Assembly (NCBI GenBank): GCA_025462885.1
Contig: JAOAPN010000013.1
Location: 546,621 to 610,620 of the forward strand
From: Acidobacteriaceae bacterium
GTDB lineage: Bacteria; Acidobacteriota; Terriglobia; Terriglobales; Acidobacteriaceae
Reading direction: 5' to 3'
DNA length: 64,000 nt
In this document: in pieces, positions 1 through 51,025 of the stretch
How positions within the stretch are numbered: the stretch's first letter is position 1
Layout: the number at the start of each line of letters is the position of its first letter
The notes under the pieces: model-generated
Databases searched by the model: none
What the model saw: only the letters and a program-made list of their open reading frames with translations
What the model was told of the DNA's origin: nothing
Made by a program: the position numbers and the translations under genes

Positions 1-1
1 T

Positions 2-12000: not shown

Positions 12001-13193
12001 TGATGCTGGACGCTCTACCGTTGACTGCTACGGGCAAACTCGACCGCGACGCTTTACCGACCGCGAAGGATGCCGAACCCTTGCGTGAGTTTGGTAAGGA
12101 CGACGTTCCGAAAAATTTCACCGAAGTTCAGCTTATCCATATATGGGAACAACTGCTGGAAGTGTCTGACATCGGTGCGATGCAGAATTTTTTCGATATT
12201 GGTGGAAATTCACTACTCGCACTTCGGCTCTTTGCTCAAGTGCGAAAGGCTTTCAAAGTTGAGCTACCGCTCACAACATTGTTCGATGGAGCAAACGTCC
12301 GATCAATGGCGGAAGCAATCCTGAGGCGGAAAGACGGTGGATCGCCTTCCGAGGGATCGATCGTTGTACTTCAGCCTCGGGGTGATAGTCTTCCTCTCTT
12401 TTGTGTCCATCCGGCAGGCCGCTCAGTTCACGGTTATGTACATCTAGTGAGGAATCTCGGAGTTGGGCAGCCTGCGTATGGAGTCGAGGATCGGGGAGAG
12501 CTTGATCGACCAGTCGCGCAGATCGTCACTGAACACCTTGCTGCAATCCGCGCGATTCAACCCTCTGGCCCCTATAGCTTGCTCGGTTGGTCATTCGGCG
12601 GGCTTCTAGCGTATGAGATGGCTGTGCAACTTGAAGATGCGGGTGAGGCAATTGCTTTCCTGGGATTGATGGACACTATGGAGCCACAACTCTGGCACAG
12701 CTTGCCGCAACTCAGCGAACTGGACGTCGTTTTGGGTCTCGCCTCCGATGTCGCCGCACAGATGAATCGTCCTTTTTCGATAGATCGGCAACTGCTTGCG
12801 AATCTATCTTTCGCTGAGCAGTGCGAAAAGGCGGTGGACGTCCTGAAAATGCAGGGAGCTGTCCCCACTTACTTCACTGCGAAATGGTTAATGGACGGTT
12901 ATGAAACGATTAGGGCCCGCCATCGTAGCCAGGAAGGCTATCTCCCCGGACGATTCAAGAGCAAACTAACGCTATTTAGACCCAGCGAGATTCCCGGGGA
13001 ATCGGCCCAAATTTTTACTGGGTTCAGCGAGGACGAGCAGCGGACACTCTGCTGGTCACGCGTCGTAGATGGGACGATCGACGTTCAATCGATACCCGGC
13101 GGCCATGTGACGATGGGCGCCGAGCCACATGTTCGTATCCTTGCACAGAAGATACGGGAGGCGATCGCCGCGGCCCCCTCGTGCCCAAATTGA
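9060..13193 (+). CDS. Nonribosomal peptide synthetase, C-A-T-TE termination module
   Basis: C motif HHIVCDGWS, A motif YVIYTSGSTGRPKG, T motif MQNFFDIGGNSLLALR, C-terminal thioesterase motif GWSFGG. Confidence 0.97.
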   Translation: MSSRASSLNSSPDSLGPLQSGALDRPQSDAWIAQEVNETLGLSSTASYAQERLWFLERVGQGGVAYNILAPIHLRGRLDPVAFEEAFCEVVRRHDTLTTSFEERDGVLLQTIDPLHQVEFKFLNLESFDQIERDRIAKEKFAHIWKNPFDLTSAPLYRAQLLKLSQDEYWFLFCIHHIVCDGWSMGIIFQELWAFYNAYRDGLPSPLPDLPMRYIDFSRGQRKDAGSATEVAALAYWKEHLTGAPPQISLPTDFPRPGHSTLRGASVPVVLGHDALHKLQRFATQESVTLYMVVLAAFTVLLSRYAESDDIVVGTLAAGRTLPATQGLVGLFMNTLALRVDLSGDPSFCSLVGRVREVVLNGYEYQDLPFGRLIEEVRPERSLSHAALFQVLFQMAFVDGADSSQLARDLEVRAIPIESRDTAKFDLTLDLGVQPSGMNGALEYSPDLYKESTIRNMVTQFQRILEQVAEEPLKPISSLRLVGDDEWERVVHSWNQTARSYPIHRTIQDMFESQVDRTPDAPAVISHGEQTLRFADLDIRANQLAHYLQQSGVGPEVRVGICMDRVPDLLVSIFGVLKAGGAYVPLEPSHPSERRNYMLSDSDVSLLLTQTRYVEGSGLPNRVRPILLDSATASAEIAAQPTERPVSTVDSKNLCYVIYTSGSTGRPKGVAMHHAGVCNYIAWGIDAYAAGSGNGAPVFTSMAVDLTFTNLLPLFAGRSVMMFPEENPVEALAEVLRQKPDFSLIKITPTHLSLLTPLLEDAELSGATRSLIVGADFLRAETTLFWQDNENGTRLFNEYGPTETVVGCSAQFMETGRFRAGLVPVGGPISNIRFYVLDDQMEPVPIGMPGELYIGGIGVARGYLNRPGLTAEKFLPDAFGSTAGRLYKTGDRARWTEEGTLLVLGRLDNQLKVRGYRVELGEVDAVLRRHPDVIECLITARTNQLGDTHLIAYVVGRASEQAFRTHMRQHLPEYMQPQNFVMLDALPLTATGKLDRDALPTAKDAEPLREFGKDDVPKNFTEVQLIHIWEQLLEVSDIGAMQNFFDIGGNSLLALRLFAQVRKAFKVELPLTTLFDGANVRSMAEAILRRKDGGSPSEGSIVVLQPRGDSLPLFCVHPAGRSVHGYVHLVRNLGVGQPAYGVEDRGELDRPVAQIVTEHLAAIRAIQPSGPYSLLGWSFGGLLAYEMAVQLEDAGEAIAFLGLMDTMEPQLWHSLPQLSELDVVLGLASDVAAQMNRPFSIDRQLLANLSFAEQCEKAVDVLKMQGAVPTYFTAKWLMDGYETIRARHRSQEGYLPGRFKSKLTLFRPSEIPGESAQIFTGFSEDEQRTLCWSRVVDGTIDVQSIPGGHVTMGAEPHVRILAQKIREAIAAAPSCPN

Positions 13194-15085
13194 TACATCC
13201 GCAGTACACCTACCTCACTCATCTACCAATGGCCAGAGAGAGATCGAATTCGCTGATGAACGCTATTGCTCTCATCCTCCTTCTTTGGAGGACTTCGCGA
13301 TGGTGGTTCTTGGTTTTCGGATTGATTGTCGCTATCCATGGCTTGGCACCCACGGCATTGAACATCGCGAGTGGAGTTCTGATTCGTTCTATAGAGAATT
13401 CTGTCAAATACGGCACGTTGAACGAGCGCAGTGAAGGGACAATCCTCGCATTTGCGGGGTTTCTGATTGCGGCTGCAGCGTCGGCGATCGCCGGGAATCT
13501 TATGCAGCCGCTGACACACGCACTTAGCAGCCGTCTCTGGTTAGATGTCCAGCAATCCTGTGCGGTCGTTTCGCTTCGGGCTAATGGTCAATGTGGATCA
13601 GAAGCCACGCGACACGTTCAGGATATTCATCTAGTCCAAGAAGCGGAACAGTCAGGGATCGTGAGAAGGGCACCAATGGTACTCGCGGCCGTTGTCGGAT
13701 TCCGAATGGTAGGAGCTGGCGCTCTTGTTCTCCTCTTTGGCTTTCGTTGGTGGGTTCCTTTTTTGCTTCTCATCCCTTGGCATCTGAGCAACAAGGTATT
13801 CTTGAAAGCCCTTCGCCGTGGAGTGGACGTCGACACTTCAGACGATTCCCACGAGCAGCGGCGGGCGGAGTATCTAAGGTCATTGGTGCTGGGAATCCCG
13901 GCAGCAAAGGAGATCAAGGTCTTTGGTTTGGGAGCGTGGTTGACCGCCAAGTACGCTGAAGATTGGCTTCGCGCCCTCGGTCTGATGTGGAGACACCGCA
14001 AGAGCGGATGGGGAGCTCCAATCGCAACAAGTTCCATCATCATCTCTCATGCCATCGTCCTCGGAACTCTGACCTCAGCGACTCTCTCAGGCGAAATCGA
14101 TCCCGCCAAGTTGATTGTTTTCGTGCAGGCAGTCATCTCGAGCTGTGCACTGGGATTGGTTGGGGAATCGCAATGGTGGCTGACCCAGGCCAATATGTTT
14201 GCGGAACGTGCAAATCGGCTGAACAAAACCGCGAAGGCGCTTGAAGAAACTCTAGGCCGAGACGGACAGCAGGCTGGAAATTCAGTGAGCGGCGCACTAT
14301 CCATCCAATTCAGCGATGTTGATTTCTCATATTTCGGGCAGACTTCACCAGTGCTAAAAGGCCTTAGCCTCACCGTTCCCCCAGGTCAGATAATAGCGAT
14401 CGTCGGAGAAAACGGTGCAGGCAAGAGCACGCTTATAAAACTCTTGTGTGGGCTCTGCGAACCGCAATCTGGGTCGATCTTCGTGGGCGGGCGACCGCCG
14501 CAAGAAGCAAGCGGTCATATTGGCATGATTTTCCAAGACTTCGTTCGCTATAAGCTCTCTCTTCGGGACAACGTGGTGCTTGGATGCAGAGGAGCTGGCG
14601 GTGACCGTATTCCTTTGGAAGAAGTCGCGAAAGATGCTGGTTGCGAGGATCTACTCAGAAAGTTGCCGAAGGGTTGGGACACAATTCTCTCAGCCGAATT
14701 CCGGGGTGGTGTGGACCTGTCCGGCGGAGAGTGGCAAAAGGTAGCGCTGGCACGGGCGGTTGCGTCAGTGCGTGCAGGCGCTGGGCTGCTGATTCTTGAT
14801 GAGCCGACTGCCAATCTGGACATCCGATCCGAGACCGAACTGTTCAACCGGTTCCTAGACTTCACTGCGGGTGTCACTACCATTCTCGTCTCCCATCGGC
14901 TATCGAGCGTAAGACGGGCGCATCGAATTATCGTTCTCGGGAATGGGTGCGTTCTCGAGGACGGCACTCACGATGCCCTGCTTGCCATGGGCGGTCGCTA
15001 TGCTCGCATGTTTCGGATGCAGGCAGCGCGTTTCACAGAAGCAGAAGGAGATACTGCAGAGGCAGAGGAAGCACAGGCCCTATGA
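13181..15085 (+). CDS. ABC transporter, fused TM + ATP-binding (peptide exporter type); GTG start overlaps the NRPS stop, ATG alternatives at 13229 and 13256
   Basis: N-terminal TM helices, Walker A GENGAGKST, signature LSGGEWQKVALARA, Walker B LLILDEPTANLD. Confidence 0.93.
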   Translation: MPKLIHPQYTYLTHLPMARERSNSLMNAIALILLLWRTSRWWFLVFGLIVAIHGLAPTALNIASGVLIRSIENSVKYGTLNERSEGTILAFAGFLIAAAASAIAGNLMQPLTHALSSRLWLDVQQSCAVVSLRANGQCGSEATRHVQDIHLVQEAEQSGIVRRAPMVLAAVVGFRMVGAGALVLLFGFRWWVPFLLLIPWHLSNKVFLKALRRGVDVDTSDDSHEQRRAEYLRSLVLGIPAAKEIKVFGLGAWLTAKYAEDWLRALGLMWRHRKSGWGAPIATSSIIISHAIVLGTLTSATLSGEIDPAKLIVFVQAVISSCALGLVGESQWWLTQANMFAERANRLNKTAKALEETLGRDGQQAGNSVSGALSIQFSDVDFSYFGQTSPVLKGLSLTVPPGQIIAIVGENGAGKSTLIKLLCGLCEPQSGSIFVGGRPPQEASGHIGMIFQDFVRYKLSLRDNVVLGCRGAGGDRIPLEEVAKDAGCEDLLRKLPKGWDTILSAEFRGGVDLSGGEWQKVALARAVASVRAGAGLLILDEPTANLDIRSETELFNRFLDFTAGVTTILVSHRLSSVRRAHRIIVLGNGCVLEDGTHDALLAMGGRYARMFRMQAARFTEAEGDTAEAEEAQAL

Positions 15086-16890
15086 AGCAACGCTTTCGCG
15101 CTGTGAAGTTTCTTCTGGAGACCGGCTGGCGAGTCGACAGATGGCGAACTCTCGGATTGTCTCTCGAGATTCTGGCGTTTATCCGCGCACCTCTATTTGC
15201 ATGGTACCTAAGAATGATGGCGAACGGAGCGTTGCGCCACGATCGAGGGGCACTGATCGAAGGTGCTGTTGGTATCACATTTGCCGCCGTTGCGGGCTTC
15301 GCAGGGCTGTGGTTCGGTAGCCAAATGCGAATCCGGCTGACCGAAGAAGTCGGCTTCGCATTGAATAGGGAAATCGCCTATCTTGTATCCACGGTTCCGG
15401 GATTGGAAGTCCAGGAAAGACCAGAATTCCAAGATCAACTCGAACTCCTGAATCAGGGCCATGGCATATTGGGCGGTTCGCTAAGCACGCTCTTGAATAC
15501 GGCAAGAGTTATTCTTTACGGCATCGGTACGGTTGCAGCTCTGGGGCTCTCGTCCCCAATGATGCTCCTGATCATTCCATTCGCGCTTCCGACGTTCGCC
15601 ATATCGACTCTGCAACAACGCTGGACGGAAAGGGCGAGGGAAGCATCGGCGGAACCGCTCCGACGGGCTCGTCATCTTCTCTCGCTGGCAACTAACGCGA
15701 AGTCGAACCTGGAACTAAAGCTATTTGGATTGCAGCGAGAGATCATTGCCCGTTTTTCTAGAGACTGGACGAGTGGGAGCCAAATCATTCTGACCGCGCG
15801 ACGAAGAATCGCCCTCCTGGCGATAGGAGGCGATCTATTCTTCCTCGTCGGCTTTGTCTCTATCATCATGTTGATGATTTCGCGGGCCCAGCATCATCTT
15901 GCGTCGGTCGGCGATGTTGTACTAGGCGTGTTTCTCGTGCAAGAGATACGAAGCGCAGTCGTTGAGCCGGCTCGAAGTGCGGCGTCCGTGGGAGAGACAT
16001 TGAATGTTGTGAGCAGAATCCTGTGGTTAAAAGAATTTACGGAGCGTGCAATAGCTATCGGTAAGGGTGCACAACCAGCGCCGAACAGGATCAATCATGG
16101 AATCGTGTTTGACAATGTCTCGTTTCAATATCCTGGAACAGATCGCTGGGGTCTTCGAAATGTGTCCTTCAGCATAAATCCGGGCGGCATTGTCGCGATA
16201 CTTGGCGAAAACGGTGCCGGGAAAACGACTTTGGTCAAACTCTTATGTCGAATGTACGAACCGGCAGACGGGCGCATTCTGATCGACAATATCGACCTCA
16301 ATGATATTGAAATCGACTCGTGGAGAAGTAAGCTTTCGGGAGCTTTCCAGGATTTCGCCCGCTTTGAATTCACTGCCAATCAGTCTGTAGGCCTAGGAGA
16401 CCTCTCTCAGTTGGATAACGGCGAGAAGATTTGTTCTGCTATGGACCGTTCCGGCAATCCTGATCTGCTCAAGATACTTCCGTCAGGAGGGGCCACTCAG
16501 TTGGGGGCAAATTGGAAGGACGGAGTTGACCTATCTACTGGGCAGTGGCAGAGCATCGCCCTTGGAAGAGCTTTTATGCGGGACACGCCTCTTATGCAAT
16601 TCTTCGACGAACCGGCGTCAAGCCTTGATCCCGTAGCAGAGCATGAATTGTACGCACGGTATACCAACGAGCACCGACGGCTTCGCCACAACGGGGGCGT
16701 CACTTTAATGATTTCACATCGATTCTCGACCGTTACCGCGGCTGACCTCATAGTTATGATCCGCGATGGCTCGATTGTGGAAACAGGAAGCCACGATGAG
16801 TTGATGTGTGCTAACGGCCTCTACGCAGAGCTTTATCGCATGCAGGCGCAGCAGTACACCTCAGGATGGCGGTTCGCTCCAGCCAAGTAA
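15082..16890 (+). CDS. ABC transporter, fused TM + ATP-binding
   Basis: ATG overlaps the previous stop (ATGA). Walker A GENGAGKTT, signature LSTGQWQSIALGRA, Walker B MQFFDEPASSLD. The ORF-track start at 14947 is upstream of the likely true start. Confidence 0.93.
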   Translation: MKQRFRAVKFLLETGWRVDRWRTLGLSLEILAFIRAPLFAWYLRMMANGALRHDRGALIEGAVGITFAAVAGFAGLWFGSQMRIRLTEEVGFALNREIAYLVSTVPGLEVQERPEFQDQLELLNQGHGILGGSLSTLLNTARVILYGIGTVAALGLSSPMMLLIIPFALPTFAISTLQQRWTERAREASAEPLRRARHLLSLATNAKSNLELKLFGLQREIIARFSRDWTSGSQIILTARRRIALLAIGGDLFFLVGFVSIIMLMISRAQHHLASVGDVVLGVFLVQEIRSAVVEPARSAASVGETLNVVSRILWLKEFTERAIAIGKGAQPAPNRINHGIVFDNVSFQYPGTDRWGLRNVSFSINPGGIVAILGENGAGKTTLVKLLCRMYEPADGRILIDNIDLNDIEIDSWRSKLSGAFQDFARFEFTANQSVGLGDLSQLDNGEKICSAMDRSGNPDLLKILPSGGATQLGANWKDGVDLSTGQWQSIALGRAFMRDTPLMQFFDEPASSLDPVAEHELYARYTNEHRRLRHNGGVTLMISHRFSTVTAADLIVMIRDGSIVETGSHDELMCANGLYAELYRMQAQQYTSGWRFAPAK

Positions 16891-16913
16891 GTTCGGATTC
16901 CTATGGTCGCTTT

Positions 16914-17699
16914 ATGATCAAGGTCGGCCTCTCTTCAAATCCTTCCCCTTGGTGCGTCGTTCAGTTGCCGCGACCGGAAGCCCGGCTTCGCCTATTCGCT
17001 TTTCCGTATGCCGGTGCCGGGGCATCGATCTATAGCTCCTGGGGAAAATATCTTAGTGACGACGTTGAGTGCTACGCGATCCAAATGCCCGGCCGAGAAG
17101 GTCGGCTAAGCGAACCCCCAATCGCCTCATGGGACATCTTAATTCCTCAGCTGGCTTCCTCACTCTTGCATCTGTTCGATCGGCCTTTTGCCTTCTTTGG
17201 TCACAGCCTCGGAGCGGCAATCGCCTTCGAACTGTCCAGGTACCTCCAACGTTCGCGACTTCCCGAACCTGTTCATCTGTGTGTATCAGGCCGCCGAGCT
17301 CCGCAGTTCATTCGAGAGAGCCCTCCTACGTATGACCTACCTACAAAAGATTTCAGCCGCGAGCTGGCACGATGGGGCACACCGAAGGAGGTACTGGACG
17401 AACCGGAGCTGCTGGACGTGTTTCTTCCGCTCCTCCGAGCAGATTTCTGTCTTTCCGAGAGCCACGGTTACACGGATGGAAGCCCCCTTAACTGCCCCAT
17501 ATCTGCTTATGGGGGAGCGCTCGATGAACACATCAGGTCAAATCATCTTCAAGGTTGGAGTTTGCACACCGCCAACAGTTTTCGAAGTGTCCTTTTCCCC
17601 GGCGGTCACTTCTTCTTGAACGAGAATCGCTCGCTCGTCATTTCGGATCTCAACCAGGAGCTCAAATCCGTGAACGATCCTCGCTCACTCCTTCGCTAG
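16914..17699 (+). CDS. Type II thioesterase (alpha/beta hydrolase, GrsT-like)
   Basis: LFAFPYAGAGASIYSSW, MPGREGR, FFGHSLGAAIAFELSR, C-terminal GGHFFL; placed directly after NRPS and exporters. Confidence 0.92.
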   Translation: MIKVGLSSNPSPWCVVQLPRPEARLRLFAFPYAGAGASIYSSWGKYLSDDVECYAIQMPGREGRLSEPPIASWDILIPQLASSLLHLFDRPFAFFGHSLGAAIAFELSRYLQRSRLPEPVHLCVSGRRAPQFIRESPPTYDLPTKDFSRELARWGTPKEVLDEPELLDVFLPLLRADFCLSESHGYTDGSPLNCPISAYGGALDEHIRSNHLQGWSLHTANSFRSVLFPGGHFFLNENRSLVISDLNQELKSVNDPRSLLR

Positions 17700-17756
17700 A
17701 AGCTAATTCTGCAGCAACTCTCTATATTGGGCCGTCTAAAAAGCCCGGAGGATCAT

Positions 17757-19367
17757 ATGTCTGATTCAACCGTTTACCTTAGCGCAAATGTTCAGGTTGA
17801 GCCCCTATGCGATCAATGGTATGCGTGGCCGCATCTCATCCCTCCAGCGACAGCGGCCCGAAATCTCACAGAGCGCCATCTACGCCTTATGGATTCATAT
17901 ATAAGTGCTCCCGCAGTTCATGCGAATGCAGTAAAGAATCCGAAGATGCTCGGCGGCCCCTTCATCGACTATGACGGGAAACGAGTCGATGAAGTTAAGG
18001 AACTCCATGATAAAACGAAGAGGCGGCGAGCAGACCTGATAGTACTCTCAGGCGCACTCAATGAGCTTAATGCCTTACTCATGAGTAAGGCGACAGGATT
18101 CTCCCTTCAGTCTCTTTACTGCGAGATACCAGCTTGTCTCCGTGGATACGTGGAACTATCGTACGATCTGAATAGTCAGCCCGCATACCGCCTTATCGAA
18201 CCTCTTCTCTATCGGAGTCCGTATTACGACAGGCATGGCCAGAGCATCATGCTGCGCACAATAACCCAGGATGATCGACCATTCGTGTTGAGTACACCGC
18301 GCTTGGGCGATGACAACTCCCTTGAACTAAGCATTCCGTTTTCGGACGATCGGCTAGATTGGCTCTTTGCGTTGAAAAGGAAACCTGCGGCTTTGTCGGA
18401 GATCCTTGAAAAGCTCAACGTCCCTTTAGGCAAGGAACAACTCTTCCGCTCATTCGTCACGTCGGAGACGCCTCAACCATATCAGTCGTATGACGGACCG
18501 GGAATCAGATGGAGGTATTTTGGGCACGCTTGCATCCTGATAGAAACACGAGGAGTGAGTATCCTCTTTGACCCTGTGCTCAGTTACACCTACGACTCAA
18601 CGATCTCTCGTTACACGTACGCTGACCTTCCCGATACCATCGACTATGTGTTCATCACGCATAATCATCAAGATCATATATTGATGGAGACGCTCCTTCA
18701 GATCCGACATAAGGTCAAAACGATCGTTGTTCCGCGAAATTCATACGGTCACCTACAGGATCCGTCATTGAAATTGATCTTTGAGGCCATCGGCTTTACC
18801 AACGTTCGTGAGCTAGGTGAGTGTGAGATGCTTCAGCTGAACGAAAACAGTGTCGCCATGGGGGTGCCGTTTTTCGGAGAGCATGCAGATCTCGAAATAG
18901 GCACTAAATTGGCTTATCTCCTTAGAATTGATGAGTGCTCTCTTCTTTTTGCTGCTGACTCCTGCAACATAGAGCCACAGATGTATCGACATATTCAAGA
19001 AGCGGTCGGGAATGTCGACGTGTTATTCATCGGAATGGAGTGTGACGGCGCACCGCTCAGTTGGCTCTATGGCGCGCTGCTACCGAGAAATCTTGAACGC
19101 TCGATGGATCAATCTCGGCGACTCTCTGGCTCTAACTATGAGCAAGCGATCGACATCGTGGAGACGTTCGATGCAAAGAATGTGTATGTCTATGCCATGG
19201 GACAGGAGCCATGGCTTAACTACATAATGAGTGTCAAATACACAGCGGAATCGAGGCCGATTGTCGAATCCACCCGGCTAATCGATGAGTGTCGTTCGCG
19301 AGGTATCTATGCCGAGCGACTGTTTGGCGAGAAGGAAATTCTGATCCCCACCGTCTGCACCGCCTGA
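17757..19367 (+). CDS. Two-part MBL-fold protein, candidate CmlA-like diiron oxygenase/hydroxylase acting on carrier-bound substrate
   Basis: About 260-aa N-terminal region, then MBL fold with THNHQDH, FAADSCN and GMECDGAPLSWLYG...YVYAMGQEPWLNYIMS. Shine-Dalgarno GGAG just upstream of ATG 17757. Confidence 0.7.
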   Translation: MSDSTVYLSANVQVEPLCDQWYAWPHLIPPATAARNLTERHLRLMDSYISAPAVHANAVKNPKMLGGPFIDYDGKRVDEVKELHDKTKRRRADLIVLSGALNELNALLMSKATGFSLQSLYCEIPACLRGYVELSYDLNSQPAYRLIEPLLYRSPYYDRHGQSIMLRTITQDDRPFVLSTPRLGDDNSLELSIPFSDDRLDWLFALKRKPAALSEILEKLNVPLGKEQLFRSFVTSETPQPYQSYDGPGIRWRYFGHACILIETRGVSILFDPVLSYTYDSTISRYTYADLPDTIDYVFITHNHQDHILMETLLQIRHKVKTIVVPRNSYGHLQDPSLKLIFEAIGFTNVRELGECEMLQLNENSVAMGVPFFGEHADLEIGTKLAYLLRIDECSLLFAADSCNIEPQMYRHIQEAVGNVDVLFIGMECDGAPLSWLYGALLPRNLERSMDQSRRLSGSNYEQAIDIVETFDAKNVYVYAMGQEPWLNYIMSVKYTAESRPIVESTRLIDECRSRGIYAERLFGEKEILIPTVCTA

Positions 19368-19378
19368 TTCGTCCAGTC

Positions 19379-20842
19379 ATGCCAACGCTATTCAAGGATA
19401 AGTGCGGCGTATTCGGGATTTGCGGCCATCCGGACTCGCTGAGTGTGACGCGCACTGGTCTAAGCGCCCTCCAACATCGCGGCCATGATAGCGCGGGTGT
19501 CGCTTTCATAGCTGGCGAGGATGTAAAACGCATCGTTGTGCCTGGTTGTGTGAATAACCTACCGGGAGGGTTAGCGGATATTCGGACAACCATGGCGATC
19601 GGCCACGTACGTTACGCCACATGCGGCAGCGCTGACATGAAGAACGCACAGCCCTTGCGACTCCAAGGAAGAACTGGAGGACTCGCGCTCGCACACAATG
19701 GTCATATCGTTAACCATCGCGCGCTGAGGCTCCACTTGCGTGATGACGATGCACTCCATTCTATGAGTGATAGTGCAGTGTTAGCCGAGAACTTGGCAAT
19801 GAATTTCGATGACGATCTAGCCGCCGCGCTAGAACGAACTCTCCAAACAGTTGGCCCCGCGTATTCACTCCTCGCGATGTCGAGAAATGCTATAAGTGCT
19901 GCGCGCGACCCTTTCGGCGTGCGCCCGCTCAGTATGGGCATGCTAAGCGGCGCAATGTGTTTCGCTTCGGAGACATCTGCCCTGGATGCCGTTGGCGCGA
20001 CCTATATCAGAGATGTCCGCCCAGGAGAGATAGTCACCATCAATCAGATGGGTCAACTCGCAACCAGAAGTCTGGACCAGCGGCGAACGGCCCATTGCAT
20101 ATTCGAACTAATTTACTTTGCTCGGCCGGACAGCATTATCTCCGGAAATCTAGTGGCTGCATTCAGGCAGCGACTTGGAGAACGTTTGGCGGTAGAAGCT
20201 CCCGCAAAGGATGCCGACGTCATTGTCCCGGTGCCTGAGTCGGGAGTCCACGCGGCGCGGGGGTTTTCGCGAGTGAGTAAGCTAATCATTTCTGACGGTC
20301 TTCAACGCAATGAGGGGGTTCCTAGAAGCTTTCTTGAGCCAACTCCGCTGGCGAGGGAAGATGCCGTGGCTAAGAAGATGAAGCCCGTTACGTATCTGCT
20401 CGAAGGGAAACGCATCGTTCTGATTGATGACTCACTTGTGCGCGGAACAACATGCAAACAACTGATCGCCCTATTACGGCAGTCGAGAGTAAAGGAGATC
20501 CACGTTCGCATAAGCAGTCCACCTGTTCTGGCACCATGTCACTTTGGCATTGACACTCCAGAAGAGGCGGAACTGTTTGCGGCCGGCAGAGATGTTCCTG
20601 CGATGGCGCAGGCATTGGGAGCAGACTCGCTTGGATTCCTGTCAACCAATGGTCTGCTCGACTCCGCATCGCCGGCACCGGGCTTCTGTATGGGGTGCTT
20701 TACAGGCGACTACCCCGTTCCTCCGGCGAGTGCAACTGACGCCCACACAGGGAAGCTAGTCAACATAGCGAAGGATTCTCACGCCTTGCCCGGCCACACT
20801 AGTACAGGCACCTTGAGCGTACGTCCTCATGACATTCTCTGA
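19379..20842 (+). CDS. Amidophosphoribosyltransferase (PurF-like, class II GATase + PRTase)
   Basis: MPTLFKDKCGVFGI (nucleophile Cys after short propeptide), LQHRGHDSAG, HVRYATCGSA, DPFGVRPL, PRPP motif IVLIDDSLVRGTT. Confidence 0.93.
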   Translation: MPTLFKDKCGVFGICGHPDSLSVTRTGLSALQHRGHDSAGVAFIAGEDVKRIVVPGCVNNLPGGLADIRTTMAIGHVRYATCGSADMKNAQPLRLQGRTGGLALAHNGHIVNHRALRLHLRDDDALHSMSDSAVLAENLAMNFDDDLAAALERTLQTVGPAYSLLAMSRNAISAARDPFGVRPLSMGMLSGAMCFASETSALDAVGATYIRDVRPGEIVTINQMGQLATRSLDQRRTAHCIFELIYFARPDSIISGNLVAAFRQRLGERLAVEAPAKDADVIVPVPESGVHAARGFSRVSKLIISDGLQRNEGVPRSFLEPTPLAREDAVAKKMKPVTYLLEGKRIVLIDDSLVRGTTCKQLIALLRQSRVKEIHVRISSPPVLAPCHFGIDTPEEAELFAAGRDVPAMAQALGADSLGFLSTNGLLDSASPAPGFCMGCFTGDYPVPPASATDAHTGKLVNIAKDSHALPGHTSTGTLSVRPHDIL

Positions 20843-21314
20843 GTTCAATCTGACAGCCCGGTCCCTGGCCTCTCGTGCTCTCTCGACCTGCTGTGGATCA
20901 TCTCTCTGGCTCGAAGAAATGCTGTCCAGGAGGCCATATGCGAATCTTATGGAATTGCACGATGCCGCCGAACAGATCTGGCAACGTCTCGACAGAACGG
21001 ATTGGCTTGAGGCGTTTTCACGCTGCCCACGCATCGGAGACCACGCCCTCGGCCCGTGGTCCCGACAAGAGCAGGCCAGTGTGGTGAATGCGCTGGAGTC
21101 GATCAAGGCGACGTTGAGAGGGCTAAACGCTGAGTACGAACTTCGGTTCGGGTGGATCTTTATTATCTCCGCTTCCGGGAAAAGTGCGGAAGATATACAG
21201 GGCTCTCTGGCATCTCGCACGACTAATTCCGATGAACGGGAGCTACAGATTACGTCGGAAGAACTGGCCAAGATTATGCACATTCGCTTGGACAAGCTCT
21301 TTGATTGCGAGTAG
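20829..21314 (+). CDS. OHCU decarboxylase-like protein (2-oxo-4-hydroxy-4-carboxy-5-ureidoimidazoline decarboxylase family) with altered active-site motif
   Basis: FSRCPRIGDHALGPWSRQEQASV and ELRFGWIFIISASGKSAEDIQGSLASRTTNSDERELQITSEELAKIMHIRL match the family pattern; overlaps the purF-like stop. Confidence 0.8.
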   Translation: MTFSEFNLTARSLASRALSTCCGSSLWLEEMLSRRPYANLMELHDAAEQIWQRLDRTDWLEAFSRCPRIGDHALGPWSRQEQASVVNALESIKATLRGLNAEYELRFGWIFIISASGKSAEDIQGSLASRTTNSDERELQITSEELAKIMHIRLDKLFDCE

Positions 21315-21357: not shown

Positions 21358-23247
21358 ATGGTTTGTACCGTTGCCAGTGCTCATGCCTCGACGTCGCGCG
21401 ACCGTGCCATCCAACGGAATAATTGCATGGGTTCAATAGATTCACACGCTGATTCGAGCATTATGAATGCGGTATCACCTATTCTGGATCGGTTCCTTTC
21501 GCGTGCGCGCGACCATGCAGATTCGGTCGCCCTCGTCGATGGCGAAGGGCAATTGACATACAAAGAGCTGAGGCAGCTGGTCGGCGCACTTGCCTTGTGG
21601 ATCGATCGCAGAGTTCCGCCCGAGGAATCGGTGTTCATTCTTGGTGCACGGACCCGCTATCTCGTGATTGCGCTTCTGGCAACATGGGAGGCAAAACGGG
21701 TCGCGGTTATGGCAGACGCGCATCATCCAGATTCGCACCTGCGCAATCTCATTAAGACAACAAAAGCATATGCGGCAATCGACTGCAGAGGACCCGATTC
21801 GGTACACGACGTTCTGGGCGTTTTGCCTGAAGCTTATTTGCGTCTGGAGGGCAAGATATTCCCGGTATCGGCATCGGATGGAGAAAGTTGTTGCCGAGGC
21901 TCAGACGCCGATGCAGGTTACATCTGCTTCACATCCGGAACAACAGGACGGCCTCTGGGTATTCGAGGATCCTGCGCGCCCATCAGCCATTTTATAGGGT
22001 GGTACATTCGTACGTTTCAACCTTCATGTACAAGTCGTTATGCAATGCTATCCGGACTTGGTCATGATCCGATCTTTCGAGACATCATGATACCGCTGTC
22101 CATCGGTGGATGCCTCTTTATTCCGCCGGACGGTCGGTACTTTATCGATGCTCTGCCGATGTTCTTGCGCGAGAACAAGATTTCACATGTTCATTTGACG
22201 CCCTCTCTTCTGACTAGCTTGCGGATTGGGAAAACAGTATGTCCAGAACTACGGGCCGTGTTTTTTGCAGGAGAACCGCTGTCAAGCAAGCATGTTTCTA
22301 GCGCTCGGATTGTGGCGCCGAACGCTCAACTCTTCAATTTTTATGGAACAACAGAAACGCCTCAAGCGATGGCCTACTATCAAGTTCCGGAAGAGGGGCC
22401 GGATCTGTCGTCCGGAATCATCCCGATTGGACATGCCATAGACGGCGTCACGTTGATGATATTGGCGGACGAAGGGACGAATTGCGCGCCTTGTGAAATT
22501 GGAGAGATCTGTGTGTGCACCCAATACTTAACGGAGGGCTACGTCGAAGAACCGGCTCTGATGCTGTCAAGGTACGGCACTGTCGCAGGCCATAAAGGGC
22601 AAGGTCTTCGGATTTTCCGGACGGGGGACTTCGGCTTCGTCGATACGGAGGGGGTCTTTTTCTGCCAAGGCCGCCGAGATCGACAGGTCAAGATACGCGG
22701 TCACCGAGTCGAACTAAATGAGATTGAGCGGCATCTCAGAAGCCACAGGTCGATTCTCGATGCTGTAGTACTAGCAGAAGCCTCTGAGGCAAACGGCATT
22801 GAACTGGACGCTTACATTGTCGGAAGTGAATCGGACCTTACAGCAGAGACAGTCGCTGGATATGTGAAAGAGGCGTTGCCGTCCTACATGGTCCCTAGAC
22901 GTGTGTTATTGGTTCCAGCTATACCGCTAACCATAAATGGCAAGCGTGATATCAGCGCTCTTATAGGGGTCGCACCGTCGGCACCTGTGACAGAGACCTT
23001 GTCTAGAACTGAGGAGACACTGCTCGACATCTTCCAAGAGGTTCTTACCATTACACAAATCGGAATAGACGACGACTTTCTAGACATAGGATGTCACTCC
23101 CTGTTGCTGCAGCGCGTCGCGAACAGGATCCAAGGTGCGCTTCGCATAGACATCGGTCTTAGGATGCTATTTGAGTTCCCGACCATCCGCAGCTTGGCGG
23201 GTGCTATCGAACTTGAGTTTGATGCGCCCGATCAATACTTCTTGTGA
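21358..23247 (+). CDS. Stand-alone adenylation-thiolation (A-T) NRPS protein; start may be 21427 or 21463
   Basis: ICFTSGTTGRPLG, GLGHDPIFRDIMIPL, FNFYGTTETPQ, RTGDFGF, GRRDRQVKIRGHRVE, and C-terminal T domain DDFLDIGCHSLLLQR. Confidence 0.9.
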   Translation: MVCTVASAHASTSRDRAIQRNNCMGSIDSHADSSIMNAVSPILDRFLSRARDHADSVALVDGEGQLTYKELRQLVGALALWIDRRVPPEESVFILGARTRYLVIALLATWEAKRVAVMADAHHPDSHLRNLIKTTKAYAAIDCRGPDSVHDVLGVLPEAYLRLEGKIFPVSASDGESCCRGSDADAGYICFTSGTTGRPLGIRGSCAPISHFIGWYIRTFQPSCTSRYAMLSGLGHDPIFRDIMIPLSIGGCLFIPPDGRYFIDALPMFLRENKISHVHLTPSLLTSLRIGKTVCPELRAVFFAGEPLSSKHVSSARIVAPNAQLFNFYGTTETPQAMAYYQVPEEGPDLSSGIIPIGHAIDGVTLMILADEGTNCAPCEIGEICVCTQYLTEGYVEEPALMLSRYGTVAGHKGQGLRIFRTGDFGFVDTEGVFFCQGRRDRQVKIRGHRVELNEIERHLRSHRSILDAVVLAEASEANGIELDAYIVGSESDLTAETVAGYVKEALPSYMVPRRVLLVPAIPLTINGKRDISALIGVAPSAPVTETLSRTEETLLDIFQEVLTITQIGIDDDFLDIGCHSLLLQRVANRIQGALRIDIGLRMLFEFPTIRSLAGAIELEFDAPDQYFL

Positions 23248-23274: not shown

Positions 23275-24501
23275 ATGCCCGTTAGCATAGCTCCAACAAT
23301 TCTTTGTATCGCGACTGCTGCAAGGGGACACGCGTTCCTTCTGGAGGCGCGCAGGCGAGGACTCCGGCCAGTACTTCTAACCTTGGACGCGCTCCGCGGA
23401 TCGGACTGGCCAAGGGAAGCGATCGAAGAGATCATTTCGATCGAACGGCCGAGTCCTCCTGCAGAAATGCTAAGGACGGTCCATTCGGCAGCACGGCGCT
23501 ATCGATTTGGTTCTGTCGTTGGTCTCGCTGAAAGGGATGCCGAGAGCGCAGCGATAGTTCGAGAAGACATGCGATTGCCGGGCATGGGCCAGAGTACGAC
23601 AAGGCTGTTCAGAGATAAGCTCGCCATGCGACATCGGGCACAAGAGGCGCATATTCCGATCCCGCGTTTCTGCGCCTTGCACAACGATGAAGAAATTAGA
23701 GGATGGGTCGATGATGTTCGGCCTCCATGGCTCCTGAAGCCGCGCAATAGCGGGGGAGCAGTCGGTATCGAGATAATTCGATCCAAGGCGAGTCTGTTCG
23801 ATACCCTCGAGACTCTTGCAGATCGAAGACCCTCGTATTTGCTCGAGCAGTATCTTCAAGGCATCGTATACCACGTAGATTCTGTCGCTTGGAAAGGAGA
23901 AGCAGTCTTCAAGGCGGTGAGCGAGTATGGTATCTCCCCGCTCGATATTGTGAAGCAAGGCGGAATTTATTCGACAAGGACTTTGTCTCCGGAGGCCCCC
24001 TGTGTTTCGCTCCTTCGCTCGCTTGATCGGCGAGTGCTGGGCTCATTCGGTCTGCAAAACGGCGTGAGTCATTCAGAGTTTCTCCTTACGTCCGAGGGAC
24101 AGGCTTATTTCATTGAGAGTGCTGCCCGTGTTGGCGGCGGATATATCTCTGAAATGCTGGAAGCCGCTTACGGCGTGAATCAATGGAAAGAATGGGCGGC
24201 AATAGAAGCGAGCCTTATTCACCGGAAATCTTATATGCCGCCTTCTCAGGAGAGGACCATGGCGTCGGGCGTCGTATTGACGAATGCACGGAACATCGAA
24301 GCTTTTGTCCCCATTGATCGTCCAAGCTCTGTTTGTGAATGGCATCTCTCCAAACATCAGATCGGCGTTATCGTGTCGAGCGAATCCTTCGACGTCCGGG
24401 ATGCGCTAATAGACGACTATAAGTCGGATCTTGCGAAAGTCGCACGTGATGGATCTATCGGTAGCAATGACGTGATGCAGCCTAATGCGAGTCAGAAGTG
24501 A
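23275..24501 (+). CDS. ATP-grasp domain carboxylate-amine ligase-like protein
   Basis: PPWLLKPRNSGGAVGIEIIRS, YLLEQYLQGIVYHVDSVAWKGE, FIESAARVGGGYISEML: ATP-grasp pattern. Confidence 0.88.
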   Translation: MPVSIAPTILCIATAARGHAFLLEARRRGLRPVLLTLDALRGSDWPREAIEEIISIERPSPPAEMLRTVHSAARRYRFGSVVGLAERDAESAAIVREDMRLPGMGQSTTRLFRDKLAMRHRAQEAHIPIPRFCALHNDEEIRGWVDDVRPPWLLKPRNSGGAVGIEIIRSKASLFDTLETLADRRPSYLLEQYLQGIVYHVDSVAWKGEAVFKAVSEYGISPLDIVKQGGIYSTRTLSPEAPCVSLLRSLDRRVLGSFGLQNGVSHSEFLLTSEGQAYFIESAARVGGGYISEMLEAAYGVNQWKEWAAIEASLIHRKSYMPPSQERTMASGVVLTNARNIEAFVPIDRPSSVCEWHLSKHQIGVIVSSESFDVRDALIDDYKSDLAKVARDGSIGSNDVMQPNASQK

Positions 24502-25754
24502 AGAAATACGTATTGATCATCCCTGATGGTGCGGCGGACCACAACCGCGATCTAGGCGGGACGCCATTCGAGTGTGCAGCTACACCGCATATAGATGAAC
24601 TCGCCTCCATGGGAGTCTCTGGCCGTGCCCAAACACTGCATCCGGACTTACCGCGAGAGAGCATGGTCGCGCAGATGGGGATCCTAGGGTGGGATCCTCA
24701 CAGATATTACCCAGGTGGACGCTCATCAGCTGAACTCTGGGCAACACACAGAATCAAACTCGATGGTAATGATTTGTCGTTTCGCGCAAATCTCAGTACT
24801 GTAAGCGACGGCCGCCTGGTCAGTTACAACGCGGGATATATTGATTCGGTCGCCGCTCGCGCTCTCGTATCAGCAGTCGACGATACTTTGAGCCGACGCT
24901 ATCATGGCATCCGCTTATACCACCTCTCCGACTTTAGAACTGCGATAGTGGTGCGTAATGCAAATACCAGCCCCGCAGCATTGGAATGTATCGAGCCCCA
25001 TGAAAGGGAAGGTGACCTCCTCGATGTTAGCCGGCTGATCAGCATGTCGGGGCGATTGAACCCTGAGATTGTGCGGCTTAACAGCTATTTGGTTGAGGCT
25101 CAAGCCTTGCTCGCGGGGAATTGCGCAAACACGTTGATTCCTTGGAGTCCGGCAAGCGCGTTGAACCTTAGCCCCTTTGGCTCGACGGTCGGCACTCCGA
25201 TTGGGAGAACTGCCATCGTCGGGTTCATGGATTTTCTGGGTGGAATAGCCGGTTCCGGAGGCATGGAATTCCATCGTGTGGGCAATGGCCGGCTCGACAC
25301 GGACTATGCCGCCAAAGGTGCGAAGGTGGTCGAACTATTGAAGGCGGGATGCGCGTTTGTCATGTGTCACATTAACAGTCCGGACGAAATGTCTCACATG
25401 GTCGACTTGCAAGGAAAGATCTATTCTTTGGAGCAAATCGACATGCATATTGTCGCGCCCATCGTCCGGTATTTCAGATCTAACGGGGATGAGCATGGCG
25501 GTGTCCTCCTCCTCCCAGACCACTACAGCAATACAGTAATTGTTCAACCTACCGGCTGCAGGCGAGACATTCATTCCCTCGACCCCGTCCCGTTTGTTCT
25601 GTGGGATGGTGTCCACTCAGATGATCGCGAGACATTTTGTGAGTCAGAGAGTTGCGCTGGCGCCTACGGTCATCCTTGCCTCCATGTTTCGCAACTGATG
25701 CCACTTCTCTTCAATCGTGGCGAACGTGTTGCCGCATGCGATTCAACCGTCTGA
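24498..25754 (+). CDS. aPGM-like (cofactor-independent phosphoglycerate mutase / alkaline phosphatase superfamily) protein
   Basis: VLIIPDGAADHNRDLGGTPFECAATPHIDELA, SMVAQMGILGWDPHRYYPG, MCHINSPDEMSHMVDLQGKIYSLEQID, LLPDHYSN, LDPVPFVLWDG. GTGA overlap with the previous stop. Confidence 0.85.
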   Translation: MKKYVLIIPDGAADHNRDLGGTPFECAATPHIDELASMGVSGRAQTLHPDLPRESMVAQMGILGWDPHRYYPGGRSSAELWATHRIKLDGNDLSFRANLSTVSDGRLVSYNAGYIDSVAARALVSAVDDTLSRRYHGIRLYHLSDFRTAIVVRNANTSPAALECIEPHEREGDLLDVSRLISMSGRLNPEIVRLNSYLVEAQALLAGNCANTLIPWSPASALNLSPFGSTVGTPIGRTAIVGFMDFLGGIAGSGGMEFHRVGNGRLDTDYAAKGAKVVELLKAGCAFVMCHINSPDEMSHMVDLQGKIYSLEQIDMHIVAPIVRYFRSNGDEHGGVLLLPDHYSNTVIVQPTGCRRDIHSLDPVPFVLWDGVHSDDRETFCESESCAGAYGHPCLHVSQLMPLLFNRGERVAACDSTV

Positions 25755-25840: not shown

Positions 25841-26743
25841 ATGCAGTTTGACAGCTTGCTTGCAATGGTCGGAAAAACACCGGCCCTCCGGATCGTTACA
25901 CCTTCCACAGCCGCCGAGGTGTACTTGAAACTCGAAGGTGCCAATCCAACGGGGAGCCTGAAGGACCGCGCCTGCCTCTTTATGTACAAGCACGCTATCG
26001 AAACTGGGCGGCTAACGAAAGGGAAAATGGTGCTCGCTGCATCGAGCGGAAATTTCGGCTGCTCCGTGGCGGCCTTCGGCCGTGTCCTTGGATTCCCAAC
26101 GACGATCGCCGTGAATAGCAAACTAACCGCAGAGAAGCGTGGCTACTTGAGATATTTCGAGGCGAATATCGTGGAGGTAGGTGACTTGACCATCCATGGA
26201 ACGGAGCATTGTCAGCATCTCGAAAGCGCTCATCCCGAGGAATATTGTTTTCTAGATCAACTTAACGACTGGCAGAATCCTCAATCGCATTTTGAAACGA
26301 CAGGCCCAGAGCTGATTGCATCATTCCCTCAGCTCGGGACCGTAGTGGGATCGATCGGCTCCGGTGGGTGTCTACTCGGAGTCGCCCGGTTCTTGAAACA
26401 ACATAAGCCGTCGATACGAGTCATTGGTGTCAAGAGTACTGCCGGTTGGCGCATTCCTGGAATAGGCGCATTTGACGAGCCGTGTGGCGATTATGTTTCG
26501 CCGTTCATCTTAGAAGCTCAAGGTAAAGGGCTATTCGACGAGGTTGTCCCGGTTGAACGTCCAGTCTGTGAGCGTGTCCTTCGTGATGCTGCGGCGTATG
26601 GATTGTTCGCCGGGCTCCAGACTGGAGGCGTGTTGCATGTAGCGTCAGCAATCGCTACAAAATCAGCCCCAGGAGAAGTAGTCGTCGGAATCTCAGGGGA
26701 TTCAGGGTGGAAGAACCTAGATACACTTCTGAAGCTCGCGTGA
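25841..26743 (+). CDS. PLP-dependent fold-type II enzyme (cysteine synthase / threonine synthase-like)
   Basis: LEGANPTGSLKDRAC (PLP lysine), AASSGNFGCSVAAFG, GSIGSGGCLLGVARFLKQ, VGISGDSGWKN. Confidence 0.9.
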   Translation: MQFDSLLAMVGKTPALRIVTPSTAAEVYLKLEGANPTGSLKDRACLFMYKHAIETGRLTKGKMVLAASSGNFGCSVAAFGRVLGFPTTIAVNSKLTAEKRGYLRYFEANIVEVGDLTIHGTEHCQHLESAHPEEYCFLDQLNDWQNPQSHFETTGPELIASFPQLGTVVGSIGSGGCLLGVARFLKQHKPSIRVIGVKSTAGWRIPGIGAFDEPCGDYVSPFILEAQGKGLFDEVVPVERPVCERVLRDAAAYGLFAGLQTGGVLHVASAIATKSAPGEVVVGISGDSGWKNLDTLLKLA

Positions 26744-26911: not shown

Positions 26912-28042
26912 ATGAACACCAACACCATCAGGAGCTCCGATCCGGACACCGGTTCAATGGGGAGCCGCAGACATGGATGCGACCTAGAGTCCGAGTCCTT
27001 GATGAAGGCTTCCACAGGAAAAGCTAAGCGCGCGAAGCTCGTATCTTTCCTTAGAGGATATTTTGTAGCACCGGTTATAGGGACATTAGGGGAGTTGGGG
27101 ATTGCGGCTCGGATGCTCGAAGGGGCGTTCTCCGTAGCAACATTCGATGGGAGGTTTGACGAAGGAACGCTGCGTTCGCTATTCCGTTACTTGCACAGCA
27201 TCGGGCTCCTTAGCTCCAGTGCGGCTGGTGAATATGAAGTGATCGATGAAGCGAGAACGATTCTGAGTCGCAATGGCGCTTTTTCTCTGCTGCTGTCATA
27301 CCAGCAGTATTTTGAGCTTTTGCCGCAGCTCCTTCAGAGCCAACCGGTTCAACCAACAGTCGATCGCGCCCGGAACGTTCGAGGGAGTGGGCATCTCCAT
27401 AGTCGCAAGTTCTTTCCAGTCGCGTTCGAGCTCCTAAAGGAGATTAAGCCTTCGTCTGTGATTGATATTGGATGCGGGGACGGCTGTTTCTTAGCGTCCG
27501 CGGTTGAGTTCTGGCCTGGCCTCGGGGTGTTTGGCGTCGATCTCGCAGAGACTGCTACCCAAGCTACCGAACTCAGGTTAGCAAGGCGATCACAATCCGC
27601 ACGGCTGACGGCAATTGCTGACGGCTTCGATATACCTGCGTGGAGTGCAGAATACGAAGCCGCCATTCCGGATAGATCCAATCTCCTGATCTCGATGTGG
27701 TTCGTGGCGCACGAGTTTTCCCGCGGTTCATCCCAGCGAATTGTGGAGTACTTCCGGGCTCTCCATAGAAGATTTCCTCAAGCAAGGATCCTACTAGGTG
27801 AGATCAACAATATCCCCGAACTGGCGCTCGCGCATCAACATGATTTTTCGATTATGCCGGAGTTCCTTCTGTTCCATGCGCTATCCGGTCAAGGGGTCCT
27901 AAGCTGGAGCTCTTGGCAGACCATTCTGACGCAGATCCCTTATTCCCTTCGCAGCGAACGATTGTTCGACGTCGTGGAGTCTGTAGACGGCTCAGCTTTT
28001 CCAGCTAGCTTCTTGTGGCTCATGGAGCCCGTTGATCGGTAA
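26912..28042 (+). CDS. Class I SAM-dependent methyltransferase
   Basis: SSVIDIGCGDGCFLASAVEFWPGLGVFGVDLAETA motif; N-terminal wHTH-like region typical of O-methyltransferases. Shine-Dalgarno GGAGG before ATG 26912. Confidence 0.85.
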   Translation: MNTNTIRSSDPDTGSMGSRRHGCDLESESLMKASTGKAKRAKLVSFLRGYFVAPVIGTLGELGIAARMLEGAFSVATFDGRFDEGTLRSLFRYLHSIGLLSSSAAGEYEVIDEARTILSRNGAFSLLLSYQQYFELLPQLLQSQPVQPTVDRARNVRGSGHLHSRKFFPVAFELLKEIKPSSVIDIGCGDGCFLASAVEFWPGLGVFGVDLAETATQATELRLARRSQSARLTAIADGFDIPAWSAEYEAAIPDRSNLLISMWFVAHEFSRGSSQRIVEYFRALHRRFPQARILLGEINNIPELALAHQHDFSIMPEFLLFHALSGQGVLSWSSWQTILTQIPYSLRSERLFDVVESVDGSAFPASFLWLMEPVDR

Positions 28043-28066: not shown

Positions 28067-28909
28067 TTGCTGAACAACGACCTACCCCTAAGGTGCGCCA
28101 GCAGGACGCTGCCGGGCTTCTATAGTCTGAAGAAAATCATGCGTAGGAATAGTACTCTTGTGTGCGACCGAGCTCGGTACTCCGTCCTTACGCCAGATAC
28201 TTTGCATCGCGAAGTGCACTTATGGTTGCTGGACCTAGAGCTGGCCTATTCCCTATGCGACATGCACGACAGGATGCTTAGTGGGGATGAGCTTGAGAAA
28301 GTATCTCGGTTTGCTTCTTCTGAGCTCAGTTATCGCTACCGGGCAACGAGAGTGCTACTACGATATCTACTTTCCAAGTATTTGAGAACATCGCCAAAAG
28401 AGATTCAGTTCACATACGGTGCGAATGGAAAACCTCACCTCCGACCGGATCATTCACTTGAATTCAATGTGTCTCATTCAGGAAACAGAGCCGCAGTCGC
28501 TATCACTGCGAATTCTCCGGTTGGTGTCGATCTCGAAGAGATTCGTTCAATTCCAGAAGCATCGCAGATATCGGCACAATGCTTTAGTCCCGAAGAAGTG
28601 AGACAACTTGCTGGGATGGCTACGTTACAACAGATCAGCGCATTTATGTGGTGCTGGTCACGAAAAGAAGCCCTACTAAAGGCGATGGGTTGCGGGCTTT
28701 CTGAGCCGATGAACGTATACCACGTCGGTGCCCGCCTGCCATTAGAGCCGTGGGAGATTTCGGTCACAGAGTGTGACCGTGCAGGCTCCACCTGGCAAGT
28801 TCAGGACATTCCATACAGCCCTGCATGTTCTATGGCCGTTGCTTATCGCGGAGCGCCAAAGGAACTCTTGGTGAGGCATCCCACCCTTTCCCATATTCTG
28901 ACGCTCTAG
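28067..28909 (+). CDS. 4'-phosphopantetheinyl transferase (Sfp-type)
   Basis: LEFNVSHSGNRAAVAI, PVGVDLEEIRSI, WCWSRKEALLKAMGCGL. Confidence 0.93.
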   Translation: MLNNDLPLRCASRTLPGFYSLKKIMRRNSTLVCDRARYSVLTPDTLHREVHLWLLDLELAYSLCDMHDRMLSGDELEKVSRFASSELSYRYRATRVLLRYLLSKYLRTSPKEIQFTYGANGKPHLRPDHSLEFNVSHSGNRAAVAITANSPVGVDLEEIRSIPEASQISAQCFSPEEVRQLAGMATLQQISAFMWCWSRKEALLKAMGCGLSEPMNVYHVGARLPLEPWEISVTECDRAGSTWQVQDIPYSPACSMAVAYRGAPKELLVRHPTLSHILTL

Positions 28910-32577: not shown

Positions 32578-32885
32578 AAAGCTAAGCACAGATGGAGATG
32601 TCGACAATTGACGCTGGCCAAGCGAAGGTAACAGTATGCGAAGGCTGCCTCGACTCTATTCCCTAGGTCATCCTCCTCCTTTTGCGATACCCGGGGAAGC
32701 AGCATAGCAACTGTCAGTGGCATGCTGAGTAAGACTCCAGTGCAAATTGCTTCGCTATCGAGAACACCGCCCCACGCCGATAGATCTTCTCCCTCGCTTG
32801 AAACAAAATACAGTGTAAATCGGTGAGACTCTGGGCTGAGCCGACGGACGCCAACCGTCGGCTCATTGTTCAGCAACGAACTCAA
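32559..32885 (-). CDS. Small hypothetical protein, possible last gene of the S41/CHAT operon
   Basis: TTG start overlaps the S41 peptidase stop (TTGA); no recognisable domain. Confidence 0.35.
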   Translation of the reverse strand: MSSLLNNEPTVGVRRLSPESHRFTLYFVSSEGEDLSAWGGVLDSEAICTGVLLSMPLTVAMLLPRVSQKEEDDLGNRVEAAFAYCYLRLASVNCRHLHLCLAFHSTDT

Positions 32886-46400: not shown

Positions 46401-47012
46401 TCACTCCACCCGAAGGTGATGGTCTCTCCGGATTTCAGCTCCGAGCACGTCTTCGTTCACTAACTTCGCAGCCTTTATAGCAGAACTACTCGGTAGCGAA
46501 TGGCGGACGCAACTGTTTAGTCTCTGCTTATCCTCTTCAGGGACGCGAGCCAGAATCTGTTGCCAGAAAGATCCCGGGATCTTGGCTTCGATCTCGCGGT
46601 ATTCCAGGGGTACAAGTGTCTCGTTGTGAATGATGACGGAGTCCTGGCTGTTTTTCTGGCGTCGCAAGGACGTCTCAAGGCCCTCTACCTTATTTATCCC
46701 TCGGCTTGCGAGGAAGTAGAGCACCATCTGCTTCGTGCGCACAGCTTTGTTTTCCGCTGTACGTGCACGTTCTGACAGGCGTACCGCCTGGCCACGACAG
46801 TGCTCTGCCCGAGCGTTCAGGGTAATCAGAAACTGGCCGATACGATCGACCTTGCGATCAAAGGCATGGCAGAACTGATGAAAGCGTTCCACGAGTTCAG
46901 GCGATACATTCGCTTCACCGCCTTCCTCTGCCTGTTCCTGAATCTTATCGAGTAAGAGATCCAATTCGCGGTCAAGCTCAAACAAGGAACCGTTGCTGGT
47001 TGATGTCGACAT
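46401..47012 (-). CDS. Gp157-like (siphovirus family) protein
   Basis: SNGSLFELDRELDLLLDKIQEQAEEGG...RTAENKAVRTKQMVLYFLASRGINKVEGLETSLRRQKNSQDSVIIHNETLVPLEYRE. Start at MSTSTSNG with GGAG ahead. Confidence 0.7.
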   Translation of the reverse strand: MSTSTSNGSLFELDRELDLLLDKIQEQAEEGGEANVSPELVERFHQFCHAFDRKVDRIGQFLITLNARAEHCRGQAVRLSERARTAENKAVRTKQMVLYFLASRGINKVEGLETSLRRQKNSQDSVIIHNETLVPLEYREIEAKIPGSFWQQILARVPEEDKQRLNSCVRHSLPSSSAIKAAKLVNEDVLGAEIRRDHHLRVE

Positions 47013-47036
47013 GACATCTCCTTTCGGGAAAAGGGA

Positions 47037-47060
47037 GATGGCCGCGCGGTCGCGGCCATC
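47037..47060. other. Intercistronic hairpin, possible attenuator/processing element
   Basis: Perfect 10-bp stem GATGGCCGCG-CGGT-CGCGGCCATC between the Gp157-like and VWA genes. Confidence 0.6.
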
Positions 47061-47076
47061 TTGTATGAGGTTGGGA

Positions 47077-51024: not shown

Positions 51025-51025
51025 C

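Follow-up and report, generated by a model that had tools for sequence, protein, structure and literature searches.

Within a hybrid PKS-NRPS cluster of an Acidobacteriota genome (5.26 Mb in 16 contigs, 99.5% complete) we identified a UraD-like protein with the OHCU-decarboxylase fold in which a cysteine, Cys66, occupies the position of the catalytic histidine. UraD is regarded as catalyzing just one reaction, in urate breakdown. From its linkage and divergence the protein is likely to have been recruited to a different role, and a change in its chemistry is plausible. We therefore lean, with moderate confidence, toward the view that a diverged UraD paralog was recruited to the building-block or tailoring chemistry of a PKS-NRPS lipopeptide pathway, with Cys66 replacing the histidine as acid/base. 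All coordinates below, unless a contig is named, refer to the analysed stretch of 64,000 nucleotides (G000:C6:546621-610620), hereafter the window.

The UraD-like protein and its His-to-Cys change

The UraD-like ORF (20829-21314, forward strand) starts with ATG and encodes 161 amino acids with no internal stop codons; its sequence contains AFSRCPRIGDHALGPWSRQEQ and RFGWIFIISASGKSAE. Both profile scores and an all-helical fold place it by descent in the OHCU decarboxylase family: it matches the Pfam family OHCU_decarbox (PF09349) over residues 13-155 with 124.2 bits (8.6e-36; cut-off 24) and the NCBIfam subfamily PRK13798 with 151 bits, above the cut-off of 124, while its score against the stricter equivalog TIGR03180 (UraD_2), 137.2 bits, is just below the cut-off of 139.4. 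The AlphaFold2 model, computed from a 51-row alignment, has a mean pLDDT of 92.8. At E < 0.001 it matches 14 PDB entries, which comprise OHCU decarboxylases, (S)-allantoin synthase and Atu2327; the best are 3o7h, 2o70 and 2q37, and Foldseek TM values against the Klebsiella, zebrafish and Arabidopsis enzymes are 0.76-0.86 (0.86 for 3o7h_A). An earlier note on this DNA had described an OHCU-decarboxylase-like protein with a His-to-Cys change in its HPRIG motif, and had suggested family alignment, HMM comparison and structure prediction as a check; these analyses confirm the fold as well as the replacement of the histidine.

The protein has CPRIG in place of the family HPRIG, the cysteine being specified by the TGC codon at 21024-21026 (forward strand). 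In an alignment with 50 Acidobacteriota homologs, which include the second copy from the same genome, position 66 is histidine in all 50 homologs and cysteine in the UraD-like protein alone; the change is unique among the sequences examined. In the printed alignments the solved relatives 5uou and 3o7h show HPRIG and 2q37 shows HPQIG; the alignment of 2o70 stops short of the motif, so that the comparison with solved structures comprises the other three. We take the HPxIG histidine to be catalytic, as in the zebrafish, Arabidopsis and Klebsiella OHCU decarboxylase structures, and the Glu/Gln after the motif (E81, Q82) together with the C-terminal R153 to be pocket residues. By this measure the protein lacks the histidine expected of a functional OHCU decarboxylase, and the alignment shows that the presumed pocket residues are retained. 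More generally, E81, Q82, N100, Y103, R130, E138, I149 and R153 are invariant in the homologs and kept here, as is the RFG.IFI pattern that the note had also pointed out. The note had allowed that an intact catalytic histidine might lie elsewhere; with the flanking invariants E81, Q82, N100, Y103, R130, E138 and R153 in register, no displaced histidine was found in the protein.

TGC differs from CAC at two bases, more than one miscalled base could account for, and we rejected sequencing error as unlikely. Further drift is seen at C114S and L124Q. A Q146L difference, considered as a second catalytic loss, was discarded as evidence because the aligned Klebsiella enzyme also has leucine there. 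In a maximum-likelihood tree the tip leading to the protein measures 1.67, about five times the median of 0.3, and its exact placement is unsure on account of this very long tip. The protein shares with the characterized OHCU decarboxylases (Klebsiella 3o7h/5uou, zebrafish 2o70, Arabidopsis 2q37) the fold, the Pfam family, E81/Q82/R153 and RFG.IFI, but differs from them in Cys66, in its very long branch and in its location in a PKS-NRPS rather than a ureide locus.

The same genome encodes a canonical UraD with an intact HPRIG on another contig (G000:C4:480720-481190), in a gene order of allantoinase, UraD, HIU-hydrolase-like (uraH) and uricase-like, the neighbors of UraD being named by reading their sequences. 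A comparable ureide gene set is present in a related locus, L007. The two copies belong to the same fold family and are 36% identical over 149 aa, but the Cys66 copy is not accompanied by uricase, HIU hydrolase or allantoinase, its neighbors being PKS-NRPS tailoring genes. The existence of a separate canonical locus on contig C4 implies that urate breakdown is independent of the Cys66 copy. It also limits the note's statement that further ureide genes cannot be seen, which is correct for the window but not for the genome, where the allantoinase-uraD-uraH-uricase locus is found.

The PKS-NRPS cluster and its second PurF

The cluster begins about 15 kb before the window, where two C-A-T proteins precede a hybrid synthase of 5801 aa. 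Domain analysis of the latter, whose start lies some 8.4 kb upstream of the window and whose 3' half occupies 1-9043 (forward strand), yielded the architecture KS-AT-ACP-AMT-C-A-T-C-T-C-A-T-E-C-A-T, with AMT denoting an aminotransferase and the E domain assigned from an HHLIVDV motif and its position. It is followed on the same strand by a terminal NRPS module, C-A-T-TE with an Asn-like A domain (9060-13193), giving the organization of a lipopeptide cluster, i.e. a KS-AT-ACP-aminotransferase entry, then C-A-T modules and a TE. In all, the hybrid PKS-NRPS has six A domains and one module without an A domain, namely the second C-T module of the hybrid synthase (window 44-1402, analyzed with the upstream part of G000:C6, the unit ending near 1230). 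The A-domain specificity positions, taken from an alignment with GrsA in which the nine GrsA code residues were recovered as expected, are DYWNVAMVV, DASTVAAVC (twice), DLTKVGEVG, DLTKIGEVG and DFWSVGMVH; of these we take DASTVAAVC to be Tyr-like, DLTKVGEVG and DLTKIGEVG to be Asn-like and DFWSVGMVH to be Thr-like.

This layout resembles that of iturin/occidiofungin-type clusters, which are likewise hybrid PKS-NRPS systems and to which the present cluster may be likened in its KS-AT-ACP-aminotransferase entry, Tyr/Asn-like A domains, separate thioesterase and CmlA-type hydroxylase. Judging by its domains, the synthase looks like a maker of a beta-amino-fatty-acid lipopeptide. To our knowledge, no iturin/occidiofungin-type cluster has a PurF/UraD/apgM-like/CysM-like set. 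Occidiofungin itself is a hybrid PKS-NRPS product containing beta-hydroxy-Tyr and beta-hydroxy-Asn (PMC10897925).

Downstream of the synthase, all on the forward strand, lie two ABC exporter genes (13181-16890, comprising 13181-15085 and 14947-16890) and then an operon-like run of genes: a type II thioesterase-like alpha/beta hydrolase (TEII) with a GHSLG motif (16866-17699), a CmlA-type diiron beta-hydroxylase combining CmlA_N with a metallo-beta-lactamase-fold domain (17727-19367), a second PurF (19379-20842), the UraD-like gene, a standalone A-T didomain with the specificity positions DPRHFAFQA (21358-23247), an L-amino-acid-ligase-like ATP-grasp ligase (23275-24501), an apgM/homoserine-kinase-like enzyme of the alkaline-phosphatase superfamily (24498-25754), a CysM-like PLP enzyme of the beta-replacement family (25841-26743), a methyltransferase-like protein with weak Pfam matches (26912-28042) and a 4'-phosphopantetheinyl transferase (PPTase, 28067-28909). 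The ATP-grasp and apgM-like genes overlap by 4 nt, and terminator- and promoter-like sites in the TEII-to-PPTase run are no commoner than in shuffles. The combination of the A-less module with the standalone A-T didomain, the CmlA-type hydroxylase and the TEII suggests in-trans loading of one beta-hydroxylated residue. The apgM-like enzyme, whose RRAG motif is changed to YNAG and whose gene adjoins the CysM-like gene, has no other copy that we could find in the genome, and two better-scoring CysM copies are encoded in the same genome in addition to the CysM-like gene. The pairing of the apgM-like with the CysM-like gene suggests that an amino acid is phosphorylated and then undergoes beta- or gamma-replacement.

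The second PurF, an amidophosphoribosyltransferase identified by equivalog score (398 bits against a cut-off of 350) and alignment, is 42% identical to the canonical housekeeping PurF on contig C1. Alignment with 1gph/1ao0 showed the N-terminal nucleophile cysteine, the glutamine site and the PRPP loop to be all present, the catalytic cysteine lying behind an 8-residue propeptide-like stretch and the loop retaining the sequence IDDSLVRGTT. The enzyme is apparently catalytically complete and functional. Its gene (3' end at 20842) overlaps the start of the UraD-like gene (20829) by 14 nt, which suggests coupled translation. That a PurF gene should lie within a PKS-NRPS cluster and overlap a UraD-like gene is no less odd than the His-to-Cys replacement.

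No second case of this arrangement emerged from our searches. A second high-scoring counterpart of the UraD-like protein was absent from overlapping sets of 101, 396 and 399 Acidobacteriota genomes (about 700 in all); a related-loci search of genome contigs returned a canonical ureide locus only, with no orthologous cluster; GTDB species genomes searched by peptide patterns contained neither an orthologous UraD nor the cluster; and plasmid records held only ordinary-looking relatives of UraD, PurF, CysM and CmlA. CmlA was found in none of the 63 genomes of the genus beyond the cluster's own, and the search of 396 genomes across the phylum recovered relatives in three other Acidobacteriota genomes (41-61%). 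Relatives of PurF, UraD, ATP-grasp, apgM and CysM are absent from the fetched neighborhoods of these three, one of which (G263) is incomplete because the contig measures 6.4 kb. The stretches checked around CmlA relatives from Nostoc, Gloeocapsa, Ralstonia and Burkholderia (47-55%) also have no PurF/UraD/ATP-grasp/apgM/CysM set. The nearest CmlA loci checked are unlike the present cluster in lacking the PurF/UraD/apgM-like/CysM-like set. Relatives of the ATP-grasp enzyme (about 31-43% identity) occur in 75 of the 396 Acidobacteriota genomes, at one to three per genome, with flanks that gave no hint of function. A full-text search of open-licence papers returned no report tying an OHCU decarboxylase to nonribosomal peptide synthesis.

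Proposed recruitment and its alternatives

Several lines of evidence argue for recruitment of the UraD-like protein: an intact ORF with a confident OHCU fold; Cys66 against histidine in 50 of 50 homologs with E81, Q82 and R153 kept; a tip some five times the median (1.67 versus 0.3); a canonical HPRIG copy residing in its own ureide locus; the 14 nt shared with the gene for an intact second PurF inside the one-directional TEII-to-PPTase run; and the neighboring PKS-NRPS with its aminotransferase and A-less module. Against it count the failure to find a second cluster of the same make-up in the genomes searched, the chance that the second PurF has some other purpose, and the drift at C114S and L124Q, which is also compatible with decay. 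The earlier proposal that the protein serves the peptide pathway rather than urate breakdown is supported in part, by the cluster location, the purF overlap, the long branch and the separate canonical ureide locus; the change of substrate or chemistry that the note inferred, and action on carrier-bound peptides, for which it suggested an assay, would go beyond this evidence.

OHCU decarboxylation, which yields (S)-allantoin, is cofactor-free, a proton taking the place of the leaving CO2. The UraD-like protein keeps the fold together with most of the presumed ligand pocket, and Cys66 would take over the general acid/base role that the histidine has in OHCU decarboxylation. The likeliest reaction would be a decarboxylation that needs no cofactor, or else a tautomerisation (proton shuffle), with the Cys66 thiol as proton source. 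A chemical precedent for such a proton donor is found in arylmalonate decarboxylase, a cofactor-free decarboxylase from an unrelated family that is comparable only in how it works, where C188, by protonating the enediolate, determines the stereochemistry (PMC12576825). The substrate may be a small, polar intermediate, heterocyclic or of ureido type, on the way to a non-proteinogenic building block; its supply would involve the overlapping partner PurF, as a source of phosphoribosylamine or of ammonia from glutamine, together with the ATP-grasp, apgM-like and CysM-like enzymes. For the A-less module, the standalone A-T didomain could work with the CmlA-type hydroxylase and the TEII to provide one residue that is loaded in trans and beta-hydroxylated. 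As a tentative extension, to which we give rather low credence, a Cys-dependent UraD-fold enzyme, with the dedicated PurF and the ATP-grasp/apgM-like/CysM-like set, could make a purine-metabolism-derived building block or tailor the residue that the A-less module receives in trans. If true, purine enzymes, namely a His-less UraD and a spare PurF, would have been recruited into peptide natural-product chemistry, bringing a lipopeptide synthase a new family of tailoring enzymes and a new route to its precursors. The protein would also offer a chance to see whether cysteine can stand in for histidine in a cofactor-free decarboxylase.

The lost invariant residue, the long tip and the lack, in the genomes searched, of a conserved ortholog showing constraint would also fit a decaying or non-catalytic paralog that hitch-hiked into the operon, lost its histidine and persists as a passenger or as a binding or structural partner. 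We consider this unlikely, though the most serious of the alternatives, given that the ORF is intact, most near-invariant residues are kept and the fold is confident; the purF overlap and tight operon packing also speak against it, and the alteration of the histidine codon at two positions within an otherwise intact motif is unlike random decay. A protective rather than biosynthetic role of PurF and the UraD-like protein is improbable in our estimate: glutamine antimetabolites are known to act on PurF, and the second copy, complete and accompanied by a housekeeping copy elsewhere, could provide self-resistance to, or balance purine flux against, a glutamine-mimicking or PurF-directed product, with UraD being carried along as a linked purine gene. 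Yet the synthase appears to make a beta-amino-fatty-acid lipopeptide, a class for which we know of no action on PurF; a UraD with cysteine for histidine would contribute nothing to resistance, and the two ABC exporters already suit export or resistance.

Slightly less probable still is that the protein remains an OHCU decarboxylase that tolerates the cysteine, supplying or draining allantoin or ureide for the cell or the cluster. The Pfam and NCBIfam subfamily scores above cut-off and the conservation of E81, Q82 and R153 are in keeping with this, but the histidine is universal in the aligned homologs, the equivalog score falls just short, and the genome has a canonical copy with its pathway partners, whereas no uricase or HIU hydrolase gene adjoins the Cys66 copy.

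Other genes in the window

Beyond the cluster, three groups of genes were named by eye. The region 32882-35820 comprises a tail-specific-protease-like gene (32882-34174), a gene for a CHAT-domain-like protein (34174-35820) and a TPR-like neighbor, and is possibly a separate system. Further downstream, a single run (46401-50188) combines MoxR-like ATPase and VWA-like metallopeptidase-like genes with hypothetical ones, followed by an AbiEi/AbiEii-like pair with the look of a nucleotidyltransferase toxin-antitoxin system (50281-51988).
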